This document shows positions 413 to 29,112 of a DNA stretch of 32,080 nt, one piece after another (position 1 is the first letter of the stretch; the number at the start of each line of letters is the position of its first letter). This DNA comes from Thiomicrorhabdus sp. (GTDB taxonomy: Bacteria > Pseudomonadota > Gammaproteobacteria > Thiomicrospirales > Thiomicrospiraceae): positions 1-32,080 of the forward strand of contig JAKISK010000013.1 of NCBI GenBank assembly GCA_021648625.1, given 5' to 3'. A program made the position numbers and the translations under genes. The notes beneath the pieces are model-generated. The model had not been told where the DNA came from, ran no database searches, and saw only the letters and a list, made by a program, of their open reading frames with translations.

Positions 413-943
413 GTGAAAGAGATAAAAATTTCTCCCCCCCCTACATTAACCGATTCTGAAATAGACGAATATTGGATGCAGCACGCTTATACGCTTGCCG
501 ATAAAGCCGCCCAACAAGGCGAAGTGCCTGTGGGCGCCGTATTGGTGCTAGACAATCAACTGATTGCAGAAGGCTGGAACCGTTCCATTCAAAATAATGA
601 CCCCACCGCACATGCCGAAATTATGGCGTTAAAGAGGGGGGGGGATAAAATTGGAAATTATCGCTTGATAGACACAACGCTGTATGTCACTTTAGAGCCT
701 TGCCCTATGTGCGCGGGGGCGATGGTTCATGCGCGTGTCAAACGCTTGGTTTATGGCGCGTTAGATTTAAAAACCGGTGCGGCAGGTTCTGTTTTTAACC
801 TTGTAAATAACAACAAATTAAACCATCAACTCGACATTCATTCAGGTGTCTTAGCACAACCGTGCAGTGAACAAATAAGTGCATTTTTTAAAGCACGCCG
901 TCAAATGCATAAGCGTCATAAAAAACAGTCTAAAAACATCTAA
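413..943 (+). CDS. tadA: tRNA-specific adenosine deaminase (GTG start likely)
   Basis: EVPVGAVLV, HAEIMAL, TLYVTLEPCPMCAGAMVHARVKRLVYGA zinc-deaminase motifs. Confidence 0.94.
   Translation: MKEIKISPPPTLTDSEIDEYWMQHAYTLADKAAQQGEVPVGAVLVLDNQLIAEGWNRSIQNNDPTAHAEIMALKRGGDKIGNYRLIDTTLYVTLEPCPMCAGAMVHARVKRLVYGALDLKTGAAGSVFNLVNNNKLNHQLDIHSGVLAQPCSEQISAFFKARRQMHKRHKKQSKNI
424..441 (-). repeat. G8-AGAAATTTTTA motif (dispersed poly-G/AT motif, site a)
   Basis: + strand TAAAAATTTCTCCCCCCCC region; reverse complement GGGGGGGGAGAAATTTTTA. Confidence 0.8.
636..652 (+). repeat. G9-ATAAAATT motif (site b)
   Basis: GGGGGGGGGATAAAATT inside tadA. Confidence 0.8.
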
Positions 944-6590: not shown

Positions 6591-6681
6591 CGTTTTAGAG
6601 CAACGCGTTACATCAAAATGTGGCACAATAGCGCCCATTCAGTCCCCCTAATAATAATTATAATTGAGCAGGAAAAATATT

Positions 6682-8286
6682 TTGATTTCAACCGCAAACA
6701 TTACCATGCAATTTGGTGAAAAACCCCTTTTTGAAAACATCTCTGTTAAATTTGGAGAAGGCAAACGTTACGGCCTAATTGGCGCTAATGGGTGTGGAAA
6801 ATCAACCTTTATGAAAATACTAGGGGGCGATTTAGAACAAACCAATGGCGTGGTGAGCATTGATGAAAACGTGCGCGTAGGTAAGTTAAAGCAAGATCAA
6901 TTTGCTTACGAAGAATACAGTGTAATCGACACCGTAATCATGGGTCAAGAAGAGCTGTGGGAAGTAAAGCGTGAGCGTGACCGTATTTACAGCTTACCCG
7001 CCATGAGCGAAACCGAAGGCATGTTGGTCGCAGACCTAGAAATACAATTTGGTGAAATGGACGGTTACACCGCCGAATCGCGTGCGGGAGAGCTATTACT
7101 TGGCCTAGAAATTCCTGTCGAACAGCATTTTGGACCCATGAGTGAAGTGGCACCCGGTTGGAAATTACGCGTGCTATTAGCGCAAGCACTGTTTGCAGAT
7201 CCCGATATTTTACTGCTCGATGAGCCAACCAACAACTTAGACATGAACACCATCCGTTGGTTAGAAAACGTGCTAAATGAACGCAAAAGCACCATGATCA
7301 TTATCTCGCATGATCGTCACTTCCTAAACAGCGTGTGTACCCACATGGCCGATTTAGACTATGGTGAACTGCGTGTTTACCCAGGAAACTACGATCAATA
7401 CATGACCGCTGCCGCCATGATTCAAGATCAACTACACTCCGATAACGCCAAAAAACAAACCCAAATTAATGATCTCAAAAGCTTTGTAAGCCGTTTTTCG
7501 GCCAATGCCTCCAAAGCAAAACAGGCCACGTCAAGAGCCAAATTGCTGGATAAAATAGAGCTAACCGAAATCAAAGCCTCCAGTCGAGTCAATCCCTTTA
7601 TACGTTTTGAGCAAGACAAAAAACTATTTCGTACCGCATTAGAAATCAAAAAACTCAACAAAACCTATTCGGACAACGAAGGGGACAACAACGAAGTGCT
7701 TAACAACCTAGAGCTAATGCTAGAAGTAAAAGAACGTTTAGCCGTGATAGGTCCCAACGGAGTTGGTAAAACCACCTTACTTAAATGTTTAATGGGCGAG
7801 ACAGAACTCACCTCGGGAACCATTAAATGGTCCGAAAATGTAAAGTTAGGCTATTACGCACAAGATCACGCCAGCGATTTTGAAGAAGATATGAGCTTAA
7901 TGGACTGGATGGGGCAGTGGAAGCAAAAAGGCGATGACGAACAATCCCTTCGTGCCGTGCTAGGGCGTTTATTATTCTCACAAAAAGACATCGATAAATC
8001 CGTTAAAGTTCTGTCAGGGGGCGAACAAGGGCGCATGTTATTTGGTAAGTTAATGCTGCAAAAACCAAATATTCTCATCATGGATGAACCCACCAATCAC
8101 CTAGACATGGAATCCATCGAATCGCTTAACCAAGCAATGATTGATTTTCCAGGCACCATTATCTTTGTTTCACACGATAGAGAGTTTGTATCATCCCTAG
8201 CAACACGCTTATTGGTACTAAACGACAACGATTACTTTGATTTTAGAGGTGATTATGAGTCCTATTTGTCTACATTAATTAATTGA
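6682..8286 (+). CDS. ybiT: ABC-F family ATPase, YbiT-like (track ORF starts 6664; TTG at 6682 preceded by AGGAAA better matches the family start)
   Basis: [45 protein letters not shown]; two ABC cassettes; linker between them. Confidence 0.88.
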
Positions 8287-8322
8287 TTATGATCGTTCTA
8301 CGATAGAGCAAATTGATTGCGA

Positions 8323-8353
8323 GGGGGGGGGATAAATTTTATCCCCCCCCCCC
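8323..8353. repeat. Head-to-head inverted pair of the poly-G/AT motif (sites d1 and d2)
   Basis: GGGGGGGGGATAAATTTTATCCCCCCCCCCC, 36 bp after the ybiT stop codon. Confidence 0.88.
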
Positions 8354-8430
8354 ATATCACCACAAAAAAAGACTGTTTTTAGTTTGAAAAGTTTGTTTAA
8401 GGGGGAGCGTCTCTGTTTTCTGTTTTTCCT

Positions 8431-8444
8431 AACGCCTAAATTAT
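8431..8444. repeat. Short direct repeat AACGCCTAAATTAT (partner at 9224-9237)
   Basis: 13/14 match with AACGCCTTAATTAT on the other side of the metallopeptidase gene. Confidence 0.4.
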
Positions 8445-8454
8445 GCGACTTAAT

Positions 8455-9183
8455 TTACACCTTAGTTTTTAAGCTAAAGACACTACTAAATTCTTTACCC
8501 TGCCGTACTTTTGACAACATGGAATACAACTCTTTAGCTGGATATGTAGCCAATATTTCTTGAACTGCGGCCTTTGCTGAACGGTAATTTTTAAGATTTT
8601 CTTCTTTGCTACTCGTCCAAAACTCACTCGGACTATTAAGTGTTTTTACCCTATTGATCTCTTGTTGGCTGAATAACTTATAATCAACCTTATAGTGATC
8701 TCGCAGGTCAACCTGCATTGCGATACCTTCATCAAACCAAGTTGGGATCTTGGTTTGGTAAGTCCAGTAACCTAATATTTCCCTCATTTGTGCATGCATT
8801 AATTCATGCGCAAATAAACTAACATTAATTTTTTGATGGTTAATAACGATATAATTTTTCCAAGGTGCGTTAAAAGCCTTACCTGGAAAATTTCCCAGCC
8901 CAAACTTTTTAGCATTATCTGGTGTTCCAGTTATAACGATTGTTGGCATAGCGGTAAAAGAACCATATTTATTTCTAATTCTCTCTTTTGATTCACTGAG
9001 TAAAATAAGTATTTTTTCAGATTCATTTTTTTCAAGATTTGAGTCTATATAAATATTTTCTGAGACATTATTAAAGTCTGAGTTTTCTATTGTTGAAAGC
9101 CAAAACACATGTGAATAAGCAAATGTTGCACCTGCAAATACAATAGCGACAAACCCAATTACGATTATAGCCAGTTTTTTCAT
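8455..9183 (-). CDS. Membrane-anchored/secreted gluzincin-type metallopeptidase (track ORF begins 9207; AGGAGG precedes ATG at 9183)
   Basis: N-terminal hydrophobic segment; LFAHELMHAQM (HExxH) with downstream WFDEGIAMQ. Confidence 0.7.
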   Translation of the reverse strand: MKKLAIIVIGFVAIVFAGATFAYSHVFWLSTIENSDFNNVSENIYIDSNLEKNESEKILILLSESKERIRNKYGSFTAMPTIVITGTPDNAKKFGLGNFPGKAFNAPWKNYIVINHQKINVSLFAHELMHAQMREILGYWTYQTKIPTWFDEGIAMQVDLRDHYKVDYKLFSQQEINRVKTLNSPSEFWTSSKEENLKNYRSAKAAVQEILATYPAKELYSMLSKVRQGKEFSSVFSLKTKV

Positions 9184-9223
9184 CTGAAACCTCCTGAGTA
9201 GTCTCATTCCTATTTTTACGCAT

Positions 9224-9352: not shown

Positions 9353-10204
9353 CTATTTCGTACCTAGATTATTTTCAATTTGAGCAATTTTATTTAACCT
9401 AAGCTGCTCGAACTCTATTGGTGATAAATACTCATTTGTACTATGAGGTCTATCGTGGTTGTAATAGCCGATATACTCACTTACGACACGCTTCATATGA
9501 TCGGCTTCTATTAAGCGTTTAAGTTGATAAATAACTTCTGTTTTCAATGTTTTAAAGAAGCTTTCTATCACGGCATTGTCCCAACAGTTCCCGCGACGAC
9601 TCATGCTTTGTTTCAGTCCCCAAGAATTTAGCAGTGTACGGTAGTCATTACTAATAAATTGACTCCCTTGGTCTGTATGTACCATTAAACCTTTCGGTGG
9701 ATTTCGACTCCATAAGGCTCGCTTAAGCGCGGTTTCCGTAAGTTCTGAGCGCATATTGTTTTCAAGTGACCAACCTACGACCTTGCGTGAATAAAGGTCT
9801 ATGTAGCAAGCAAGGTAAAGCTTTCCTTGTGTTGTTTTGATCTCGGTGATGTCTCCGACCCACACTTGATTGGGGTAGCTTACCTCAAACTCTCTATTAA
9901 GCAGGTTAGGTTGAATTCTTGAACTATTTGCTGGGGCAGTGCTTCCTTTTTTAAACTTGCGTTGTGTTTTTACGATTAATTCGAGTGTTTTCATTATGTA
10001 ACCAATCTTACGACGACTGAGAACAATCTTTTTTTTGTTGAAAAGGTGGTGCTTTATTTGACGTGTACCTCCGTTTCTTTTCAGTGCGTAGAACGCATCT
10101 TCAACTAGCTTATTGGTTTTTTGCTGTTGGGCTTCTTGTTTGGTTTTATTGAGTTTTGTCCAACTAAAATAGCTACTTTTTTGAAGTTCTAAAACGTGAA
10201 GCAT
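9353..10204 (-). CDS. IS3-family transposase OrfB (DDE integrase core)
   Basis: YPNQVWVGDITEIKTTQGKLYLACYIDLYSRKVVGWS, VHTDQGSQF, MSRRGNCWDNAVIESFFKTLKTE, YNHDRPH. Confidence 0.93.
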   Translation of the reverse strand: MLHVLELQKSSYFSWTKLNKTKQEAQQQKTNKLVEDAFYALKRNGGTRQIKHHLFNKKKIVLSRRKIGYIMKTLELIVKTQRKFKKGSTAPANSSRIQPNLLNREFEVSYPNQVWVGDITEIKTTQGKLYLACYIDLYSRKVVGWSLENNMRSELTETALKRALWSRNPPKGLMVHTDQGSQFISNDYRTLLNSWGLKQSMSRRGNCWDNAVIESFFKTLKTEVIYQLKRLIEADHMKRVVSEYIGYYNHDRPHSTNEYLSPIEFEQLRLNKIAQIENNLGTK

Positions 10205-10251
10205 GACGTTTAAACTGTATTCTTCGAGATGGCTGGCTATCCAAGCGTATT

Positions 10252-10335
10252 TCAGTTCTCGAGACTCGCGAAATACGCTGTTGCCTTTTTTAGGATGTCA
10301 CGTTCCATTTTGGTTTGTTTTAGTTCCGTTTTTAA
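10252..10335 (-). pseudogene. IS3-family OrfA 3' remnant
   Basis: Reverse-strand translation ELKQTKMERDILKKATAYFASLEN* with A AAA AAG frameshift heptamer at 10285-10291; upstream part missing. Confidence 0.75.
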
Positions 10336-10347
10336 GCATAAACTACA

Positions 10348-11679
10348 TTACTTGTATCTTGATGACATATGTTTACTTATTACTCTCAAACATTCATTTA
10401 TAGGCACTTCTTCAGACTGATCAATATCAATCCAAAACACATTCGGCTTACTATCACAAAATAGCTTTAAGTTATTATTAACTTGAGCTTCGGTTTCTTT
10501 TAGTGTCATCTTAAGGTTCCTATTACAAATTACTTCTGGATTTTCTCCCAAACATATAACTAAATCAGGCTCTGGTATAAAAAATTGCGCTAATTTAATT
10601 ATCCACACGGGTAACTTGATGCGTTCTCTTTTGGAGCCAGTGAGATAGTCATAAAAATATGTATCAAACACCCAAATACATGATTTCTTTACTTTTTTAG
10701 GGTAAACTTTAATCCAATAACCGACTATATAATCAACTAAATAGTAGAGGAATAACATCATTGAAACAATAAAGCTCGATTTTTTTTGTGTATCGAGGGG
10801 GCTACTAGATCGTCTGTTTTTTTTATTACTCCATAATGTGGCTATACTTGGTATTAGATTAGGACGAGAGTGCTCATAATATAATTCGTTATGTGATGCT
10901 TCGTTGAGAACCTCCATTACCTTATTTATAACTGTCGTTTTACGTGTGCCATCAGCACCAAGAAAAGCTATCGTATAGCCAGGAGGGGAAAAGAAGCGGT
11001 AAGCTTTGAATAGCTTTAACTTTAAGTTTAACACCTTGGTTTTGAAGTGTTTAGTAAGTTGTTTTTGACCTAGTATTGCTAGCTTTGTTATAATTTTTGG
11101 ACTGTAATTACTTTGAAGCGCTTCCGATAGGTCGTCCAAAAAATCAACTGAGTATATTTTAGAAAGTTCCTGTCTATATAAATATTTATTTTTGCCCCAA
11201 GCTATTTTAGCTGGCTCAAAATATTTCAGTTGTATTTTCTTATTATTTAGAGCTTCTTTTAAAAATGCAATTAAATTTGAATCCTCATCATTTGCAACCT
11301 TTATACCATTGTGTGTATGAACTCTTGATAAAAGAAAATCAACTGGGAACATGGAGCTACTTTTATACGGTAATATTGATTCATGAACATCTATTTGCAA
11401 TGCATACCAGCAAGCAGCGTTAAAACCTGTAACGCAAATCCTAGGAGATAATTGCCCGTATCGTATAATAATTTCCCCTTCCGTTCTTTGCAAGACTCTA
11501 TATAAAGCTTTATAGAACCTATTAATGTCCTTGCTTTTCACAAGAATATCTAAATCACTTCCCCCTAATGAAGTTGGCAAAGTATCGTAATTTCTAAGAA
11601 CACAATACTGTATTTGTTGAGCGTTTAACTCAGTGAAAAAGGGCACAAGAAAAATCTTGTTATCGACTAAACTAGACAA
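10348..11679 (-). CDS. Nucleotidyltransferase-like N-terminal domain fused to thymidylate-kinase-like P-loop domain (copy 1)
   Basis: YCVLRNYDTLPTSLGGSDLDILV (NT-like); TIAFLGADGTRKTTVINKV (P-loop-like); PDLVICL; same architecture as 15408-16742. Confidence 0.65.
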   Translation of the reverse strand: MSSLVDNKIFLVPFFTELNAQQIQYCVLRNYDTLPTSLGGSDLDILVKSKDINRFYKALYRVLQRTEGEIIIRYGQLSPRICVTGFNAACWYALQIDVHESILPYKSSSMFPVDFLLSRVHTHNGIKVANDEDSNLIAFLKEALNNKKIQLKYFEPAKIAWGKNKYLYRQELSKIYSVDFLDDLSEALQSNYSPKIITKLAILGQKQLTKHFKTKVLNLKLKLFKAYRFFSPPGYTIAFLGADGTRKTTVINKVMEVLNEASHNELYYEHSRPNLIPSIATLWSNKKNRRSSSPLDTQKKSSFIVSMMLFLYYLVDYIVGYWIKVYPKKVKKSCIWVFDTYFYDYLTGSKRERIKLPVWIIKLAQFFIPEPDLVICLGENPEVICNRNLKMTLKETEAQVNNNLKLFCDSKPNVFWIDIDQSEEVPINECLRVISKHMSSRYK

Positions 11680-11795
11680 TGCAGGTTCCTTTAATGTTTT
11701 AGCTTAAAAGTATCTAGGCAATAAATTATTATCACATTTTACCTACAAAACTAATTCTGCTCAGATATATAAATGGCGAACTTTTTTATATTGAA

Positions 11796-12890
11796 TCAAA
11801 TCAATGCAAAATTTTCATCAGATATTGCTATATTGATTACTGTAATTTTAGTGTGATAATCATCAAAATCAACACTACCCTCTTTATGACAAATAAAGAT
11901 CGATTTTAACAAATATATAACAATCATTATTTTTTTTTGAGACTCTGAAAATTTATTTAAATTTTTTACCTGATATTCCATATCAAACTGTCGAATAAGG
12001 CTCATATAAATATCCAAGTGAGTTTTTCGATTAACTAAACTCTCAACTTGATAAACAAAATGCAATACATCCATCCAAACCAAGCCAGAAAGATCTGCAT
12101 GCTCCCAGTCAAAAACAAAAAGCTCTCCACCTTGTTTTTTTCGAATATTCCATGGAGCAAAATCCCCATGCTCAATGGCTTGCATGATCGGAAAATTTTC
12201 AATTGACCCTAATGATTGATACACCCTGTCAATAACCTTCATCAGTCGTTGATCGCTCACAACAAGCTTCAAGTTCAACATCAATGACTCAATAGTATCC
12301 CAAAAACTTGTAACCTCATTTTTTACCAACGAATCAAGATAATGTAAGTGCGCTAAAGACAACAATTCCCCTGAACTTTTATTGGAGCCTACAGACTGTA
12401 TTGAATATGACATTTTCGGATTTTCAAACGTCCCTGAGGACAGTATTTGTGGAAAGTCACCGGCAACATTTTGACTCATAAGCACCTTAAGTACTTCAAC
12501 TTCATGCTCAACAACCTTGCGCGCAGCTGGTAACAATGCAATTCGTGCATAAGATAGCTCATCACCTTCTAAATTCATTATTTTTAAGGTTGACTTACTT
12601 CTAGGACCCACATCAGAAACAAGTACTCCAACCACTTTAATATTAGAAAGCTCAAGACTCTTTAACACCTCATTTAAATGCGGGCATAAGCGATTAATAC
12701 AGTCAATCTTCTCTATATAATTAAATTTTGATAATAAAGGTAAAAATATATAGTTAAAAAACTTATATATATGCCCTAATAGTCTCGACGGATAATACAT
12801 CTGCAATGCAGAGCGCATTACTCTGCCATTTTCAGTAGGTAGCAACAAACGAATCGAGCCATTTTTTCGCCTTAATACTAAGTAATTCAA
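11796..12890 (-). CDS. Aminoglycoside phosphotransferase/choline-kinase-fold protein
   Basis: Brenner-type HGDFAPWNIR and FVFDWEHADLSG metal-binding segment. Confidence 0.72.
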   Translation of the reverse strand: MNYLVLRRKNGSIRLLLPTENGRVMRSALQMYYPSRLLGHIYKFFNYIFLPLLSKFNYIEKIDCINRLCPHLNEVLKSLELSNIKVVGVLVSDVGPRSKSTLKIMNLEGDELSYARIALLPAARKVVEHEVEVLKVLMSQNVAGDFPQILSSGTFENPKMSYSIQSVGSNKSSGELLSLAHLHYLDSLVKNEVTSFWDTIESLMLNLKLVVSDQRLMKVIDRVYQSLGSIENFPIMQAIEHGDFAPWNIRKKQGGELFVFDWEHADLSGLVWMDVLHFVYQVESLVNRKTHLDIYMSLIRQFDMEYQVKNLNKFSESQKKIMIVIYLLKSIFICHKEGSVDFDDYHTKITVINIAISDENFALI

Positions 12891-14161
12891 GAGTGAGCCC
12901 TCGCTAAATTCTTCTGTTTTATAAAAAGTACAATCAAACCTGCCACTACGCCTGAAATTAATGCCAGCATAATCCCCGCTTCATGTAAACTAGAAACTGT
13001 AACCATCGCTACCATAATAGAGACCAAAGCCCACCAAAAGCTGGATACTGCTAACGTAGCAACGCTTCCCAAAACCCTATAATAAAAAGAACCTATTCTA
13101 TACAAATACATAAATAGGTAATACACTCCTTGAAATATAATCAAATAGGCAAACACACGATATTCACTACCATAAAAGAAAACGATAAGCCATTCACTAA
13201 AAAAAACAAGAACGACAATAAATAACATAAGAGCCAATGTGCCTAATAACGCCATTTTCTTTAGGTATACAGTCATCTTTTTATAGCCATATTTTTCAAA
13301 TTTCAAGGATGTTTGAACAATAATCACATTATCCATCCATTGAAAAAAAACATTAATCGGGCCGAGTAAATTTTGAATCGCCTTAATAGCCGCAGCAGCT
13401 TGAGCACCAATCATTCCTGCTCCAACAAGAATAACCCCTGAGCCACCTAACCACTGTAGCTGCCAAGAATAAAGATAGTCACGATTAACTCTCCAATATT
13501 TGACTAACAACCTTCTCGAATATCCAAAATTAGGCCTTAGCCTAAGGAAATATATTGTCAGAACGGCCGTTAAAAAAAATGTAATAAAGTACACCATAAA
13601 AGCTCTTTCAACACTGAGTTGCTCATTCCAAAACAACACAAATAAACATACAAACTGTCCTCCGTAAGCCACTATGTCAATAATGAGTACCGCTCTTGGA
13701 TTAGAAGTTGCATAAAGGTACCGCCTTAACCAGTCTTGAATCATAAACCCAAATACCGTAACGCCTATAATTAGGTGCAAAGATCGTAAACTAAGCTCTT
13801 CTGAAAAATAACCAATCAAAAATGTAAAAAGATAAACCAATATACTGGCCGCTAAAGAAACCAATAATGCATAGCCAAAATAACCTCGCACCAAAAAACT
13901 TTTATATCTTATTCTCTCTACGGGAGGAAGAATGGACATCATTTGAGCAACAACTAAAGATTGTAGGAATGTATTTGCATATAACAGTAACGCTAAGCCT
14001 ACTACATATATACCAAAGTCTTCAATACCCAAACCTCTTGCTAATAAAATACCAATACAAAAATTAGATGCAGAGACAAGCCCTTGATCAAGTAAAGACC
14101 ATAACTTAGAATTTTTAGAGGGGAGGTTTAGTTTTTTCATTTTATTTTTAACAAGAATCAC
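12887..14161 (-). CDS. Wzx-like polysaccharide flippase (MATE/MOP superfamily)
   Basis: Multiple TM segments; N-terminal SLLDQGLVSASNFCIGILLARGLGIEDFGIYVVGLALLLY typical of O-antigen/EPS translocases. Confidence 0.8.
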   Translation of the reverse strand: MILVKNKMKKLNLPSKNSKLWSLLDQGLVSASNFCIGILLARGLGIEDFGIYVVGLALLLYANTFLQSLVVAQMMSILPPVERIRYKSFLVRGYFGYALLVSLAASILVYLFTFLIGYFSEELSLRSLHLIIGVTVFGFMIQDWLRRYLYATSNPRAVLIIDIVAYGGQFVCLFVLFWNEQLSVERAFMVYFITFFLTAVLTIYFLRLRPNFGYSRRLLVKYWRVNRDYLYSWQLQWLGGSGVILVGAGMIGAQAAAAIKAIQNLLGPINVFFQWMDNVIIVQTSLKFEKYGYKKMTVYLKKMALLGTLALMLFIVVLVFFSEWLIVFFYGSEYRVFAYLIIFQGVYYLFMYLYRIGSFYYRVLGSVATLAVSSFWWALVSIMVAMVTVSSLHEAGIMLALISGVVAGLIVLFIKQKNLARAHS

Positions 14162-15402
14162 TTCGGACTATAATCACTCGGTTTATTCTGTTCACCAATC
14201 TTTTTTACTAACTTTGTCCAGGTATGCGTTTTAGCATGTTTTTGTACCCGTTTAGAGGCATCATTTAAAACAGTTATATTGCTATAATAAGCCATCGCAA
14301 CTTCTAAATCCTTAACCAGATCCGCTTCACTCTTATTAATAACGGAAACGTTACCTACCTCCCCGCTCCCCAAAATTTGACCTGGCCCTCCTATGTCTAA
14401 GCAGATTATTGGTAATCCATGAGACATGGCCTCAAGAACAACCATTCCACCAGAGTCATGTAAACTAGGAAATAGCAACACATCATGCGCCATATAAAAG
14501 TCATCTATCTGCTCTTTAGAAACCCAATCGATCCAAGTTAGTTTTTCCTCAATTTCTAAATCTATAGCAATTTGTTCCCATAATTTTTTAGCCTTACCTG
14601 TTCCGACCATGGTAAGTGTTGCATTTGGAAATTTATGACTATACTCTGAAAATGCCCTTAACCCCAGCCCCATGCCTTTCCATTCAAGAAAGCGCCCAAT
14701 AAATAAAAATTTAACCCCCTTATCTACATTAAATTTTTTAAGTTTAGAATCAGGTAATTCACTTTGGCTTAACGCAATAGCTAATTGAATTGATACTTTT
14801 TTATGAAATCGCTTAGGTATTAAATTTTTAGTTTGCTCAGAAGTAACAAAAACATGAGTGCTGCGTGAAAATATCAACCACATTCTTGGGTCTAGCTTTA
14901 TAAACAAATTTAAGAAGTCTCTAACTAAGTCTGCAAACCATTGCGACCAACTGTAATGCTTTCTGAGTCTAAATGGCACAGATTCTCCACCTGCAACAGG
15001 CCCAAAGAAAAAAGGTTTATTTAAAAAAATCAAATAGCTTGGCTGTCTTACACCTACAAATGTTATATGTTGTACATAGTCAATATCTATATTTTTTATT
15101 AATCGTTTAGCCACTCGGTAAATACCAAGTTGCCATAGCCCATAATACATCTGCACCCCAAAAGGTATCTTTTTAGCCTTCAAAAATGGGGTAGGCAGAT
15201 CATAATAGATAAAATGTACATTTTTAGTATTGGGAATGCTATCACGTGCCCCCTCTATAGCCGTTTTATTATTAGCTCTAGTTAGGACATGTAATTCATG
15301 ACCCAATTTAGCAAGCTCACAGACCCAGGCCCAACCCACACCTGGCTCGGAACCTTTGTTGGGTTCACAAGCATAGGCTGAAAGTAATATTGTTTGGGGC
15401 AC
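14158..15402 (-). CDS. Glycosyltransferase family 4 (GT-B)
   Basis: SAYACEPNKGSEPGVGWAWVCELAKLGHELHVLTR; FIGRFLEWKGMGLGLRAF; LFPSLHDSGGMVVLEAMSHGLPIICLDIGGPG. Confidence 0.88.
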   Translation of the reverse strand: MPQTILLSAYACEPNKGSEPGVGWAWVCELAKLGHELHVLTRANNKTAIEGARDSIPNTKNVHFIYYDLPTPFLKAKKIPFGVQMYYGLWQLGIYRVAKRLIKNIDIDYVQHITFVGVRQPSYLIFLNKPFFFGPVAGGESVPFRLRKHYSWSQWFADLVRDFLNLFIKLDPRMWLIFSRSTHVFVTSEQTKNLIPKRFHKKVSIQLAIALSQSELPDSKLKKFNVDKGVKFLFIGRFLEWKGMGLGLRAFSEYSHKFPNATLTMVGTGKAKKLWEQIAIDLEIEEKLTWIDWVSKEQIDDFYMAHDVLLFPSLHDSGGMVVLEAMSHGLPIICLDIGGPGQILGSGEVGNVSVINKSEADLVKDLEVAMAYYSNITVLNDASKRVQKHAKTHTWTKLVKKIGEQNKPSDYSPK

Positions 15403-15407
15403 TTCAA

Positions 15408-16742
15408 TTACTCCTTAATTTGCCGAAGAGCATTTCTTTCTAACTTTGACAAAAGTACAGACAACACTTGCTCACACGTTTTTTCTATTTCAACGTTTGT
15501 ATCAATAAGGTAAGCATTCTCTAAATTTCGAGGTAATGCCTCATATTTTTTCACCTGCTCTGTAGCAATGGAAAGTGACACCTCTCCTTTTCTCTCAACA
15601 AGTACCTGAGCAGGAGCTGTCAATACCAACCATATATCTGGCTTGGGTATAAACAACTCAAAAACTGACGTTAATCTAAAGCTATTAGGAAGCCTGTAAC
15701 GATAGGAATCTACTAACATATCATGATAATATCGATCAAATACGATCAACGTAGAAGACATTTTTTTAGGCCAAATAAACCGTAACCAACCGAACCAATA
15801 ATCTAAAGTAAAAAGGATTAATTTTAATACACCAAAGAAAAAAGATCTTGGTGACTGTGCATGAGGGTTTGCCACACTCGTACCTGCGTTAACCTTTCCA
15901 AAATGAGGGCGTAAATGGTAATATTGCGTTTTTCTAAATGCATCCCGAATACTATCCATCACAAAATCGATAATGGTCGACTTACCACTACCATCAGGGC
16001 CTAGAACTGCAATAACAAGCCCTGTTGGATTGAACGCTCTGCTCCATTTTCGTTGCATGTTTTTAACTTTGCTCCCCCAAGCATCCATCTTACTTTCCAT
16101 ATGGTTATGATTACAAGCATCTACCTGCAATACTCTAATGTTACTCTGAAACCAATTGAGGTTTCCTATCTGTATTGCTTTCTCCACATTCAGAGAGAGT
16201 TCCACACTAAATAACTCTTTCAAAGCCAATCGACATACGCTCTCATTCGATTCAAACAACAACTGAAAATATTCCAAGTGAGCGACATCAAAAGAGCTTT
16301 TAGCCAGTCTCTTTATTAAATAATATTTGAAATTGTCTTTTATACAGGGAACCCATAAACCATCAGAATTTTTAACTTTATTGTGTAAAACTTTTTTATT
16401 TTTTAACCATAACTGTCCATCTGTTCGGTAGTCATAGCATGCATCCAATGCAATACAGGCAAGCTCCATTCCAAACTGCATACCAAACACATAATATGTA
16501 GCAGATATTTCATAACGTAAAACCTGCAAGAGCCTTGCTCTCCTTAATGCATTTTTTTTCGAAAATAACAGCTCAAGTTTGCAAAAGTCAGCCTCTGAAA
16601 CCATAAAACCAACATCAGAATCAATTGTCTCAGGGTAGCCATTTACATTTCCTAAAAGCACATAGTCAATTTGATTTTTTTCAAGCTCATTACAAAACTC
16701 ATAAAACATTTCAATACATTTATTTTTTATACCCTGCGACAT
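15408..16742 (-). CDS. Nucleotidyltransferase-like N-terminal domain fused to thymidylate-kinase-like P-loop domain (copy 2)
   Basis: YVLLGNVNGYPETIDSDVGFMV; LVIAVLGPDGSGKSTIIDFV (intact Walker A); YYHLRPHFG; LIVFDRYYHDMLVD. Confidence 0.68.
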   Translation of the reverse strand: MSQGIKNKCIEMFYEFCNELEKNQIDYVLLGNVNGYPETIDSDVGFMVSEADFCKLELLFSKKNALRRARLLQVLRYEISATYYVFGMQFGMELACIALDACYDYRTDGQLWLKNKKVLHNKVKNSDGLWVPCIKDNFKYYLIKRLAKSSFDVAHLEYFQLLFESNESVCRLALKELFSVELSLNVEKAIQIGNLNWFQSNIRVLQVDACNHNHMESKMDAWGSKVKNMQRKWSRAFNPTGLVIAVLGPDGSGKSTIIDFVMDSIRDAFRKTQYYHLRPHFGKVNAGTSVANPHAQSPRSFFFGVLKLILFTLDYWFGWLRFIWPKKMSSTLIVFDRYYHDMLVDSYRYRLPNSFRLTSVFELFIPKPDIWLVLTAPAQVLVERKGEVSLSIATEQVKKYEALPRNLENAYLIDTNVEIEKTCEQVLSVLLSKLERNALRQIKE

Positions 16743-16828
16743 GCAATTCAGTGTCCTTTTAAAAGTTATTTAAGCTAAATATTCATGCTTTTTGTATAAA
16801 AAAGAGAATAAAAAAACTTCTTTATTAT

Positions 16829-17536
16829 TTACAACGCTACAGCTCTGCCAAAAACAAACTCTTTTTGCTTAACATCAAGTTGATTAAACAAGGCTTTAAT
16901 AAAATCATCCTGATTTTGATAAGCAAGCTCAACATCTTCTGTTATCGAAGAAACTCTAAATAGTAATCCATCAGGAATCTTCCCTGAAAAACCATATTTC
17001 AGTTGAATTAATTTTCTACTCACGCCAGGTAAAGTAACTTTATCTCCAATCACTATCCAATAAGTAATCGGCTCAACTCTCCCTGGTGCGGTGGCTAAAA
17101 GCCTGCGAACTAATAACGTTCTCTCTGCATCCAGCTTTATTTTTTCATCTCTAATATGAGTAATTTGAAACCCTTGAGCAGGATAACAAAACTCAGGACG
17201 ATGAACCTGATTTTGGTCACTACTTTGATCTGTCCCATAGGCTAAAGATAAAAAAACATCGTCACTGTTTTTATTCTTATAGTGCCTTTCCAGAATGTCT
17301 GAATAAATTTCATTTAAACTCTCTTCAACATCAGGTGCTTTAATTAAAGCCAGCTCTATTTTACTGGCCTTCCAATCACCTAGTTGTTTTGGAACAATGC
17401 TCTTTAATGATTCTTGGTTTTTTAAATTGGCCATATACTCAGTCGGCTTTAAATAATTTACGGTAAAGTATGAAAAAACCATCAAAATTGAAATTATTAT
17501 TACAGGCAGATTAAACATTTTCATTTTGACCCTCAC
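16829..17536 (-). CDS. epsI: Exosortase-associated EpsI family protein (DUF3485)
   Basis: LGDWKA, QVHRPEFCYPAQGFQI, RRLLA...GRVEPITYWIVIGD; adjacent to exosortase. Confidence 0.87.
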   Translation of the reverse strand: MRVKMKMFNLPVIIISILMVFSYFTVNYLKPTEYMANLKNQESLKSIVPKQLGDWKASKIELALIKAPDVEESLNEIYSDILERHYKNKNSDDVFLSLAYGTDQSSDQNQVHRPEFCYPAQGFQITHIRDEKIKLDAERTLLVRRLLATAPGRVEPITYWIVIGDKVTLPGVSRKLIQLKYGFSGKIPDGLLFRVSSITEDVELAYQNQDDFIKALFNQLDVKQKEFVFGRAVAL

Positions 17537-18428
17537 TTTTTTTCATTTTTTTAGAAAGCCACCTTAAAAAAGTATCCGTAAAAATAATAAAGACCAAAGC
17601 AACAAAAAACAGTACAAAACCAGCAAAGTCATGTAAAAAACCTTGCCCAGCCTCATCGCCATAGTGAAAAGTAATTAATACCAAAACAATAACCCTTATC
17701 ACATTCGCAATAAAAGCGATTGGAACAATAAGAATGGCTAATGTTATATTTCTAAGTGCGGAAGTGCTTTTAATTAGATATAAATAAAGCAGTCCCATCG
17801 CTTCTAAAGAGATAATCGTGTGTACTCCAGCACATGCATCCGCTACCAACAATTTATAATAACCAATTTGTAATATCACGCCTGTTCGAGCGATTGGATA
17901 ATCAAAAAAATGAAGTATATTTTCAGATACATAGGAAACGGCTATTTTTAACGGTAACGTTATCATTGCTAAAACAGCGCCAGGAATAGGAACTAAAAAC
18001 AATAAAAATAAAATAGGGAACCATAATCTTTTTACACTAGAATATCCAAAAAAAGCTAGAAAAAATCCAAATAGTAAAAAAAACTGTGATAAAACGGCAA
18101 ACTCTAGTAGGCTTTGTGATTTTCCGATAATGTATAAAAATGCACTCATTAACATACATAAATAACCCATAACTTTACTAGATGATGTACTGTCATTAGG
18201 GTCTAAAGACTTCCAATTACTCCAAAATAAAAAAATAACGATTGCAAAAACAATTGGCCCATGTGCTTGTTCATCGGTTACCCATACTTCATTGAATAAT
18301 TGAGCATATATAGACCAATAAAGCAGTACAAAAGCAGCTAAAAAAGGGACAATAATTGAAAGTTTTGTTATTTCAACCGTATTCATTTTATTAAAAACTT
18401 TATTGTTTATTAAGTTCAAACCATCCAC
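17511..18428 (-). CDS. xrtB: Exosortase, XrtB-like (ATG at 18386 possible start)
   Basis: Polytopic; VADACAGVHTIISLEAMGLLYLYL (Cys), IANVIRVIVLV (Arg), FLHDFAGFVLFF (His) catalytic positions; epsI neighbour. Confidence 0.87.
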   Translation of the reverse strand: MDGLNLINNKVFNKMNTVEITKLSIIVPFLAAFVLLYWSIYAQLFNEVWVTDEQAHGPIVFAIVIFLFWSNWKSLDPNDSTSSSKVMGYLCMLMSAFLYIIGKSQSLLEFAVLSQFFLLFGFFLAFFGYSSVKRLWFPILFLLFLVPIPGAVLAMITLPLKIAVSYVSENILHFFDYPIARTGVILQIGYYKLLVADACAGVHTIISLEAMGLLYLYLIKSTSALRNITLAILIVPIAFIANVIRVIVLVLITFHYGDEAGQGFLHDFAGFVLFFVALVFIIFTDTFLRWLSKKMKKSEGQNENV

Positions 18429-18483: not shown

Positions 18484-19887
18484 CTATTTTGAGCGTCCAT
18501 AAACATCTTCGATACGAACAATATCATCTTCACCCGTGTACTCGCCTACCTGCACTTCAATCATAACCAAATCTATTTTTCCTTGATTTTCTAAACGGTG
18601 TAGCTGACCCATTTGTATGTAAGTCGATTCATTAGGGCGTACTAAAAACTCTTTGGAATCAACGGTAACTGTTGCTGTACCAGAGACAACAATCCAGTGC
18701 TCATTACGGTGAAAATGTTTTTGTAAAGAGAGCTTATTACCAGGCTTAACCACAATACGCTTTACTTTATACTGCTCTGAAGCCTCTAAAACTTCATAGA
18801 TTCCCCATGGACGATGTGCTAAGCGATGAATCTCTGCCAATTCTGGAGCATTTTTTTTAATTTCAGCCACGACCTGCTTTACTTTTTGAGAGCTGGCTTT
18901 ACTTGAAATTAAAATGGCGTCTGAAGTATCTACAATTAATAAGTCATTGACATCAATTAACGCAATTTGACGCTCTCTTGTTACAAGTAAATTATTATTC
19001 GAATCAATACAAATAGGGGGGGGAGAATTTTCTAATCTTGATAAAACCGCATTATTGTCTTTTGCTTGCTTTACCTCTTCAAACAGTGCATCAAAGCTTC
19101 CTAAATCAGACCAACCTATATCACAAGGAACAACTTTCACTCGACTTGAGCGTTCCATGACCGCGTAATCAATGCTGTCTTCTGGAATAGCTTTCATTGC
19201 GGCTAAATCAATATGCCACTCTGAATCATTTTTATTTTTTGGCATCGCGCTTAAACATGCCTGATACATCTCTGGTGCATATTTTTTAAGCTCTTCAAGA
19301 AAGACACTGGCCTTAAAGCAGAACATTCCTGAATTCCAGTAATAATTTCCTTTATTAAGATAAGACTGTGCGGTTTCTAAATTGGGTTTTTCTTTAAATG
19401 AAAGAACCTCATGCCCTTTTGATTCAATGTAGCCAAAACCGACTTCTGGATACGTTGGTTTTATTCCAAAGGTCACTAGATTATTTTTTTCGGCTAATGC
19501 TTTGGCATTTAAAATGGCTTTCTCATACGCTTGTTGATCTTTTATTAAATGATCCGAGGTGGTTACCAGCACGAGTTCATCACCTTTACCGTCTGCCTCT
19601 ATAGCCAAACAAGCTAACGCAATAGCAGGTGCGGTGTTGCGCCCTACTGGCTCAAGCAAAAACTCTAAGGGGCGTGAAGCAACTTGCTCTAACTGGTCAA
19701 TGGCTAAAAAGTATTGTTCACGATTAGAGACAATAAATAACTGCTCGCAAACCGCTTGGTTACGCAACACGGTCTCTTGAAACAGTGAACGATCATTAAA
19801 TAATCGTACAAATTGTTTAGGGAGCATCGTGCGACTTAAGGGCCATAATCGAGTGCCAGAACCGCCACATAAAATAATATTGATCAT
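18484..19887 (-). CDS. manC: Mannose-1-phosphate guanylyltransferase / mannose-6-phosphate isomerase (start at 19887 overlapping the gmm stop codon as ATGA)
   Basis: [31 protein letters not shown]-terminal RPWGIYEVLE...VKPGNKLSLQKHFHRNEHWIVVSGTA. Confidence 0.95.
   Translation of the reverse strand: MINIILCGGSGTRLWPLSRTMLPKQFVRLFNDRSLFQETVLRNQAVCEQLFIVSNREQYFLAIDQLEQVASRPLEFLLEPVGRNTAPAIALACLAIEADGKGDELVLVTTSDHLIKDQQAYEKAILNAKALAEKNNLVTFGIKPTYPEVGFGYIESKGHEVLSFKEKPNLETAQSYLNKGNYYWNSGMFCFKASVFLEELKKYAPEMYQACLSAMPKNKNDSEWHIDLAAMKAIPEDSIDYAVMERSSRVKVVPCDIGWSDLGSFDALFEEVKQAKDNNAVLSRLENSPPPICIDSNNNLLVTRERQIALIDVNDLLIVDTSDAILISSKASSQKVKQVVAEIKKNAPELAEIHRLAHRPWGIYEVLEASEQYKVKRIVVKPGNKLSLQKHFHRNEHWIVVSGTATVTVDSKEFLVRPNESTYIQMGQLHRLENQGKIDLVMIEVQVGEYTGEDDIVRIEDVYGRSK
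19016..19031 (+). repeat. G8-AGAATTTT motif (site e)
   Basis: GGGGGGGGAGAATTTT, antisense within manC. Confidence 0.8.
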
Positions 19888-23435: not shown

Positions 23436-24830
23436 TTATGTTGATTTACGGCTTGGCGCCATCAATCGTTTTGTGGAAGGTTTCGAAAAAGGGATTTCGC
23501 CCAATACAGGAAGGCCAACTCCCTGCACAACATCATATTCTGTTCGTACTCGCCGGTTCAACAACTCAGCCAATAGGGCAATGGCAATGGCTAAAATTGA
23601 CCCTAAAAATACCGATAAAATAACATTAACCACTACATTTGGCTTGCTAGGCTTAATAGGAGGAACAGCAACATTAAGAACGGATACGTCACTTTCTTGA
23701 GACGCACCTTCTAAGGCTACCTGGCTCAAGCGCTGTGTTGCAAGGCTTAAAATTTGCTGCGCGTCTAACACATCACGTGTAAAAATATCTAGCATGTTAC
23801 GATTGTCATTAATGCCCAATAACACTTGCTTTTGCACTTCAATCGCACTTTCAAGCTCAGCTATTTTTTTCTGAGCGATGGCTACATCACTTCTAATTCG
23901 ATCTTTTGCAAAGCGAAACTCCGATGCTAACTTGCGACTTAAACTGCGTACTTCAGATCTTGCCGCGCGATATTCAGGATGTTGATCACTTAAACGCTCT
24001 GCTAACTCAGAAAGCTTTACCTCTGAACGTGCAAGAGACACTTTAAGATCTCTAATAATAGGATCCGCTAAAACAGCACTGTCTAACTTATTTACCCCCC
24101 CCTTTAACACCGCTTCTTGTCTTGATTTTTGATGGAGAAACTCTGACTGTGCAATCACCAACTGCTGAGAAAGCTGAGATAATCGTGCCGTTTCAACGTC
24201 CATTCGCTTATCTGCAGAAACAATCCCTTTTTCTCTTTGATAGTCAGACAGCCGCTTCTGCGCGACAATCAAATCAAAACGCATCTTTTCAACCTGAGCC
24301 TTAAACCACTCTGAAGCCCTCTTAGAGGGCTCAATTTTTAATTGCAAGTTCGTTTCAATATAAGCCTCAGCAAAAGCATTTGCAAAAGTGGCCGCGGAGT
24401 CTGGGTTATTCGATTCATACCCTAAAGTGATCACACTACTTTCACGAGAGGGTACAACATTAAGACTCCGTAATAACAAGCCCGCAAGCCAATTACGAAC
24501 ATCCCCCTTTCCCTCCGTTGCCTCATAAAATGAGTCAAGCACGTCTGGGTTGGTATAAAGCTCTAATTTATCCACCACTTTTAATGCCACATTTTGACTG
24601 CTAATAATGTCGACCTGCGTGGCTAAATACCCTGGAATCAACTGGCTAGGGGCACTATAGCCTGTAATAGGGTCAACACCTTTATAATTTATAACCAAGG
24701 CCGTACTGCTTTCATAGGTCTTAGGCAATACAAGGCTAATAACGACTGCTGAAATAACCGTAACCAATAAAGCAAAAAGAGCTATTTTTTTTCTTGCCTT
24801 CAATACAATCAAAAACTGGTAAAAACTCAT
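23436..24830 (-). CDS. epsF: EPS chain-length determinant EpsF (Wzz-type)
   Basis: N- and C-terminal TM helices with coiled-coil; TYESSTALVINYKGVDPITG; VPPIKPSKPNVVVNVILS. Confidence 0.85.
   Translation of the reverse strand: MSFYQFLIVLKARKKIALFALLVTVISAVVISLVLPKTYESSTALVINYKGVDPITGYSAPSQLIPGYLATQVDIISSQNVALKVVDKLELYTNPDVLDSFYEATEGKGDVRNWLAGLLLRSLNVVPSRESSVITLGYESNNPDSAATFANAFAEAYIETNLQLKIEPSKRASEWFKAQVEKMRFDLIVAQKRLSDYQREKGIVSADKRMDVETARLSQLSQQLVIAQSEFLHQKSRQEAVLKGGVNKLDSAVLADPIIRDLKVSLARSEVKLSELAERLSDQHPEYRAARSEVRSLSRKLASEFRFAKDRIRSDVAIAQKKIAELESAIEVQKQVLLGINDNRNMLDIFTRDVLDAQQILSLATQRLSQVALEGASQESDVSVLNVAVPPIKPSKPNVVVNVILSVFLGSILAIAIALLAELLNRRVRTEYDVVQGVGLPVLGEIPFSKPSTKRLMAPSRKST
24088..24102 (-). 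repeat. G8-TAAATAA motif (site f, most divergent)
   Basis: Reverse complement GGGGGGGGTAAATAA within epsF. Confidence 0.65.
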
Positions 24831-28230: not shown

Positions 28231-29112
28231 ATGAAAAAAGTTGTAATCCCCGTTGCTGGCTTAGGCACTCGATTTTTACCCGCAACCAAAGCCATTCCCA
28301 AAGAGATGATTACCTTAGTGGATCAACCGCTGATTCAGTACGTGGTACAAGAAGCAGTGAGTGCGGGCTTTACCGACATTATCTTGGTGACTCACTCAAG
28401 TAAGCAAGCCATTGAAAACCACTTTGACCATAACTTTGAATTAGAGGTGAGCTTAGCGCGTAAAAACAAGGTTGCTCTCATAGAAAAGCTTAAGGCAATT
28501 ATCCCCCCCCATATTAACATCATCTCCGTTCGCCAACCCGAACCACTTGGACTAGGCCATGCCGTGCTGTGTGCCGCCCCGGTCATTGGCGATGAGCACT
28601 TTGCGGTGATTTTACCCGATGTCATCTTAAACACTGGTTCAAACGACCTAAAACAGATGGTCACGGCATTCACAAAAAGCGATCAAAGCCAAATCATGGT
28701 TGAAAAAGTACCGAAAAACGAGGTAGACAAATATGGCATTGCCGATTGTGGCGGTGAAGCACTTGAACCCACGGATTCAAAACCCATGAAAGGCGTTGTT
28801 GAAAAGCCGTCACCCAAAAACGCTCCATCTAATTTATCGGTCACAGGGCGATATGTGCTAGACAACAGTGTACTTAACTTACTTAAAACCACCCCCAAAG
28901 GCGCAGGTAATGAGATTCAACTCACCGATGCCATTGCAGAGCTGATTGAAAGCAAGGGCGTTCAAGCCTACTGTTTAGAGGGTAAAAGCTATGACTGCGG
29001 TGATAAACTAGGATACATGAAAGCCTCTGTGCAATTTGCTGCGAATCATCCTGAGCTTGGAAAAGAGTTTTCCCGCTGGTTACAAACGTTTAAGACCGAA
29101 CTGACAAAATGA
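28231..29112 (+). CDS. galU: UTP-glucose-1-phosphate uridylyltransferase
   Basis: VVIPVAGLGTRFLPATKAIPKEMITLVDQPLIQYVVQEA. Confidence 0.96.
   Translation: MKKVVIPVAGLGTRFLPATKAIPKEMITLVDQPLIQYVVQEAVSAGFTDIILVTHSSKQAIENHFDHNFELEVSLARKNKVALIEKLKAIIPPHINIISVRQPEPLGLGHAVLCAAPVIGDEHFAVILPDVILNTGSNDLKQMVTAFTKSDQSQIMVEKVPKNEVDKYGIADCGGEALEPTDSKPMKGVVEKPSPKNAPSNLSVTGRYVLDNSVLNLLKTTPKGAGNEIQLTDAIAELIESKGVQAYCLEGKSYDCGDKLGYMKASVQFAANHPELGKEFSRWLQTFKTELTK
28497..28510 (-). repeat. G8-ATAATT motif (site g)
   Basis: Reverse complement GGGGGGGGATAATT within galU. Confidence 0.75.

Follow-up and report, generated by a model that had tools for sequence, protein, structure and literature searches.

Self-specific DNA uptake sequences with terminator-forming pairs have so far been described for the Pasteurellaceae and Neisseriaceae. 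The uptake sequence (USS) of Haemophilus influenzae consists of a core followed by an nrwwwww tail, and its close pairs number 50 in the +- arrangement, 25 in the -+ arrangement and 1 on the same strand (Kingsford et al. 2007, PMC1852404). The gaps within these pairs peak near 8 and 19-22, and pairs have been co-opted as terminators (PMC1852404). Pairs of the Neisseria DUS are almost only +- (226:5), and as terminators their hairpins have long stems and a tail with fewer T's, and are overrepresented where two genes meet tail to tail (PMC1852404). Herein, we describe a comparable arrangement in a 32,080-nucleotide stretch of DNA (the window). It belongs to G000, a Thiomicrorhabdus assembly of 1.92 Mb in 96 contigs that is 80% complete and whose nearest ybiT relatives are Thiomicrorhabdus MAGs.

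The ybiT-like ABC-F ATPase gene of the window (6664-8286, + strand; genus orthologs 82-92% identical) ends with a TGA at 8284-8286. After 36 nt, an inverted pair of G-tracts follows, consisting of G9 at 8323-8331, ATAAATTTTAT at 8332-8342 and C11 at 8343-8353, where the exact tract lengths are uncertain because the genome is a metagenome assembly. The first-pass annotation had described a near-palindrome starting 36 bp past the stop codon, with each arm being one copy of a dispersed motif and with no U-tract. All of this was borne out by the sequence and by a logo of 452 tracts. The left copy reads A G9 ATAAATTT (8322-8339, + strand) and the right copy T G11 ATAAAATT (8336-8354, - strand), its tail overlapping that of the left copy. 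The + strand RNA is predicted to form a hairpin with a 13-bp stem and a 3-nt loop at -30.2 kcal/mol (z -4.95), and a single hairpin with a 3-nt loop is predicted for RNA from either strand. No U-tract directly follows the stem on either strand, and a search of both strands of 8150-8600 found no hairpin with a T-run or canonical terminator. An Rfam search of the window returned no match at the pair, one tRNA being the sole match. The pair lies in a tail-to-tail gap, as the convergent neighbor in the ORF list (8455-9207, - strand) ends at 8455 with its stop about 100 nt away.

The motif to which both arms belong is dispersed throughout the genome. Tracts of 7 G or more number about 790, and the 452 aligned tracts gave the asymmetric consensus A-G7-10-W-R-AAAATTT, i.e., A-G7-10-(A/T)(A/G)AAAATTT, with information nearly nil past +8. 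The length of the core is not fixed, as the G-tract spans 7 to 10 or more, and tract counts drop only slowly between lengths 6 and 9. The A/T tail accompanies 78-84% of tracts with at least 8 G, compared with 21% of tracts of 5, and only one A/T tract is recognized in the motif. The window contains 4 occurrences of the pattern GGGGGGGATAA, where 0.02 would be expected, and the genome contains 52, compared with 37 for the reversed control pattern, which is also high because G-tracts are over-represented whatever their flanks. Tracts are mostly single and lie in both orientations; about 60% are intragenic, and intergenic density is four-fold higher. Adjacent tracts share the same orientation in 457 cases and are opposed in 433, a near 1:1 ratio without strand bias, and a Chi/KOPS-type polar motif was rejected on this basis. 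Neither even motif spacing nor motif depletion in compositionally atypical genes gave a signal in the genome. Single copies in the window were detected by tract scan inside tadA (434-441, - strand), inside cheA (2034-2041, + strand), antisense inside a mannose-1-phosphate guanylyltransferase-like gene (19016-19023, + strand) and inside a polysaccharide chain-length (Wzz-like) gene (24095-24102, - strand), along with a motif-like tract, G8-ATAA, antisense inside galU (28499-28510, - strand). A lower-GC segment at 9353-18428, which holds an IS3-type transposase-like ORF together with polysaccharide and exosortase-like genes, contains no tract of at least 6 G, and tracts are present on both sides of it.

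Inverted pairs of the motif are numerous. Genome-wide pair counts covered 1.66 of the 1.92 Mb, as stretches, and expectations were taken from position shuffles preserving the intergenic excess. Convergent pairs exceeded the shuffles 5-10 times, with 24 at gaps of up to 20 nt (4.4 expected, shuffle maximum 11) and 25 at gaps of 21-32 nt (2.5 expected, shuffle maximum 7), and their gaps concentrate at 8-13 and 22-26. For the same two gap classes, divergent pairs numbered 9 and 7 (4.4 and 2.4 expected), and same-strand pairs were depleted to 1 and 3 (8.9 and 4.8 expected). The first-pass annotation, which had named a lack of further inverted pairs in the genome as one half of what would refute it and had asked how far such pairs lie from stop codons, is upheld in that half, and the intergenic pairs favor gene 3' ends. 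A 3' end was the nearest gene end for 29 of 38 intergenic pairs of all kinds, compared with 43% expected (p=5e-5), with genes taken from a simple codon-score caller rather than a curated annotation. A 3'-end preference is also seen for single intergenic tracts (85 of 147), which makes the bias of the pairs partly a general one. A T-run stood beside 10 of the 24 short convergent pairs, compared with 25% of singles and 17% of random intergenic sites; this excess, above random sites and not clearly above singles, is only suggestive.

These features parallel the H. influenzae USS and its Pasteurellaceae counterparts, in that hundreds of dispersed copies occur on both strands, within and between genes, a G-rich core is followed by an n-r-w5 tail (here W-R-W5-6), inverted pairs have two preferred gaps, +- exceeds -+, same-strand pairs are rare and copies are co-opted at gene 3' ends, with inverted pairs at terminators. 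The analogy to Haemophilus and Neisseria that had been drawn at first reading therefore holds in detail for tail, pair orientation and spacing (PMC1852404). In contrast to the USS, the core is a run of G that varies in length where the USS has AAGTGCGGT, so that the fixed-length conserved core of an uptake sequence is missing, the motif is about half as dense with a single visible A/T tract, and it comes from a different order of Gammaproteobacteria. The pairs share with the Neisseria DUS terminators the long-stem hairpin, the T-poor tail and the tail-to-tail setting, although the core is unrelated and divergent pairs also occur here. We regard the motif as USS-like in layout, with a putative uptake function. 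Among competence genes, ComEC scored above cut-off in G018, G019, G024 and G025 and was in two pieces in G020, and full ComEC was not found in G000, which is 80% complete. DprA is present in G000, and a PilQ-like protein occurs in all six motif-bearing genomes, below the family cut-off.

Based on these results, we consider it probable that the motif is a clade-specific uptake-type sequence whose inverted pairs have been co-opted as 3'-end hairpins or terminators. The dispersed, orientation-neutral motif would then most likely be of the DNA-uptake type, its core being a homopolymer of G; two nearby copies in opposite orientation would let the transcript fold into a G:C-rich hairpin, and selection would retain these pairs where genes end, in the role of terminator or 3'-end barrier. 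We infer that DNA uptake drives the motif. A competing explanation, to which we assign a minor yet real share of probability, accepts the pair as a genuine 3'-end terminator or hairpin and takes the motif to be the site of a nucleoid, repair or chromosome-organization protein, unrelated to uptake. This would fit the observation that the high-copy motif of other genus members, ACCAGGCCTGGT, is palindromic, unlike known uptake sequences, and that competence genes do not track the G-tract motif, ComEC also being present in relatives lacking it. However, the motif shows no strand polarity, and its A/T tail and pair geometry closely match those of the USS, which argues against this alternative.

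The 3' end of ybiT offers what reads as a direct before-and-after picture of terminator replacement. All 18 motif-free relatives checked carry a canonical hairpin with a T-run just after ybiT; 14 of these were caught by the automatic finder, and those of G002, G005, G006 and G012, whose stems are imperfect or have long loops, were assessed visually from the sequence. In G000, G024 and G025, an inverted G-tract pair located 28-36 nt past the ybiT stop takes the place of the canonical terminator, and in G024 and G025 the orthologous pair is followed by a T-run. Neither pair nor terminator was found after ybiT in G019 and G020, where the downstream sequence is different. G020 also carries two ybiT-like loci (L298 and L308), about 90% identical to that of the window and neither with a pair or terminator, possibly reflecting a duplication or a mixed bin. 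Other gene ends can be compared as well: two with a pair in G018 are also paired in G000, one having the motifs oppositely oriented, and at the site of one G019 pair G000 has a canonical terminator. Pairs and terminators thus swap at the same sites, and nothing else indicates as strongly that the pair takes over the job of a terminator. Similar to a canonical intrinsic (Rho-independent) terminator, the window pair would give a G:C-rich hairpin just past the stop, at the site of the relatives' canonical one; it differs in lacking the U-tract and in having genome-wide motif copies as both arms. The pair at 8323-8353 would accordingly stand in for the intrinsic terminator kept after ybiT in other Thiomicrorhabdus, and its tail-to-tail position could let it serve both strands. 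We infer a role in stopping transcription or protecting the RNA 3' end at this site; given the missing U-tract, the pair may be a weak terminator, may work together with Rho or may serve only to shield the 3' end of the RNA.

It is improbable that the pair merely results from motif density and is itself without function. The missing U-tract at 8323-8353 is compatible with it, as are the intragenic pairs, 13 of 50 convergent pairs, or about one quarter, being called inside genes. However, the enrichment of inverted pairs, the depletion of same-strand pairs, the 3'-end bias and the replacement of a canonical terminator at ybiT speak against it. The proposal that the paired motif is a functional unit stands in part, supported by arms that are motif copies, by pair enrichment, 3'-end bias and terminator replacement, and weakened by the U-tract that is absent here and present at the orthologous pairs of two relatives.

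The motif is numerous in only 6 of the 32 genus genomes (G000, G018, G019, G020, G024 and G025), forming one Thiomicrorhabdus clade, and the full motif was found in none of 31 genomes from six other genera of the order. The five motif genomes that have tadA form one group in a tadA tree built with the motif columns removed (support 100/97), and all five (G000, G019, G020, G024 and G025) carry a motif copy at an identical site, which lies at 635-651 (+ strand) in the window. At this site, the alignment shows other genus members with equal length and Ala-Gly instead of the motif-encoded Gly-Gly. The tadA copy was therefore built by substitutions. Of the coding copies with a comparable relative, 55 of 62 have no nearby gap, although gaps accompany coding motif sites somewhat more often (11%) than sites chosen at random (5%). 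Single coding copies thus arose mostly by substitution, and an insertion origin for single copies was mostly rejected.

The same data bear on the idea that the arms came with the insertion of a mobile, REP/MITE-like palindromic repeat after ybiT, which we judge very unlikely. The genome does contain a distinct MITE family, and in a few long-gap pairs the similarity extends into longer flanks, TTTGTTGAACCATA or TTTTAGCATGRTA (L065:3763-3799, L065:6100-6136, L080:290-327 and L060:14432-14472), a hint that small repeat units were the vehicle by which some pairs spread. Against it, copies are mostly single, those in coding DNA usually have no gap nearby, short pairs lack conserved flanks, the window pair has none of the flanks shared by the long-gap pairs and neither a target duplication nor an inserted block accompanies the tadA copy. 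Assembly artefacts or phase-variation (contingency) repeats are least credible of all, for although homopolymers are prone to slippage and the genome was assembled from a metagenome, the A/T tails are conserved, the tracts recur in six separate genomes with the tadA site common to five, and they run across housekeeping genes in both orientations.

If the uptake-type explanation is correct, the sulfur-oxidizing Thiotrichales would provide an apparently independent case, similar in its A/T tail, in the geometry of its pairs and in their co-option as terminators, and the origin of the signal could be tested through close relatives with the motif, without it or with a different one. The presence of a slippage-prone poly-G core inside housekeeping genes also implies that the motif is strongly driven. 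More tentatively, a new G-core uptake signal may have arisen in this Thiomicrorhabdus clade, rewriting residues of conserved proteins and replacing ancestral terminators with paired signals, a scenario that we hold to be possible, if somewhat doubtful. The genus would then show signal switching, between ACCAGGCCTGGT and the G-tract motif, beyond the Pasteurellaceae and Neisseriaceae.

We found no report of the G-tract motif or of ACCAGGCCTGGT in the literature. The latter, a 12-bp palindrome, has 718 copies in G001 and 197-557 in G002, G006, G008, G012, G013, G015, G028 and G029, with 0 copies in the G-tract clade and 0 for its reversed control. Several of its copies lie just past stop codons, at sites orthologous to G-tract pairs (G001 stretches L256-L275). 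The MITE-like family of G000 comprises dozens of copies, each about 165-190 bp long, which are bounded by the terminal inverted repeats ACCCTAATCCCCAGATAG and contain an internal hairpin between A and T runs, for example at L104:6873-7035, L085:12879-13041 and L072:344-506.
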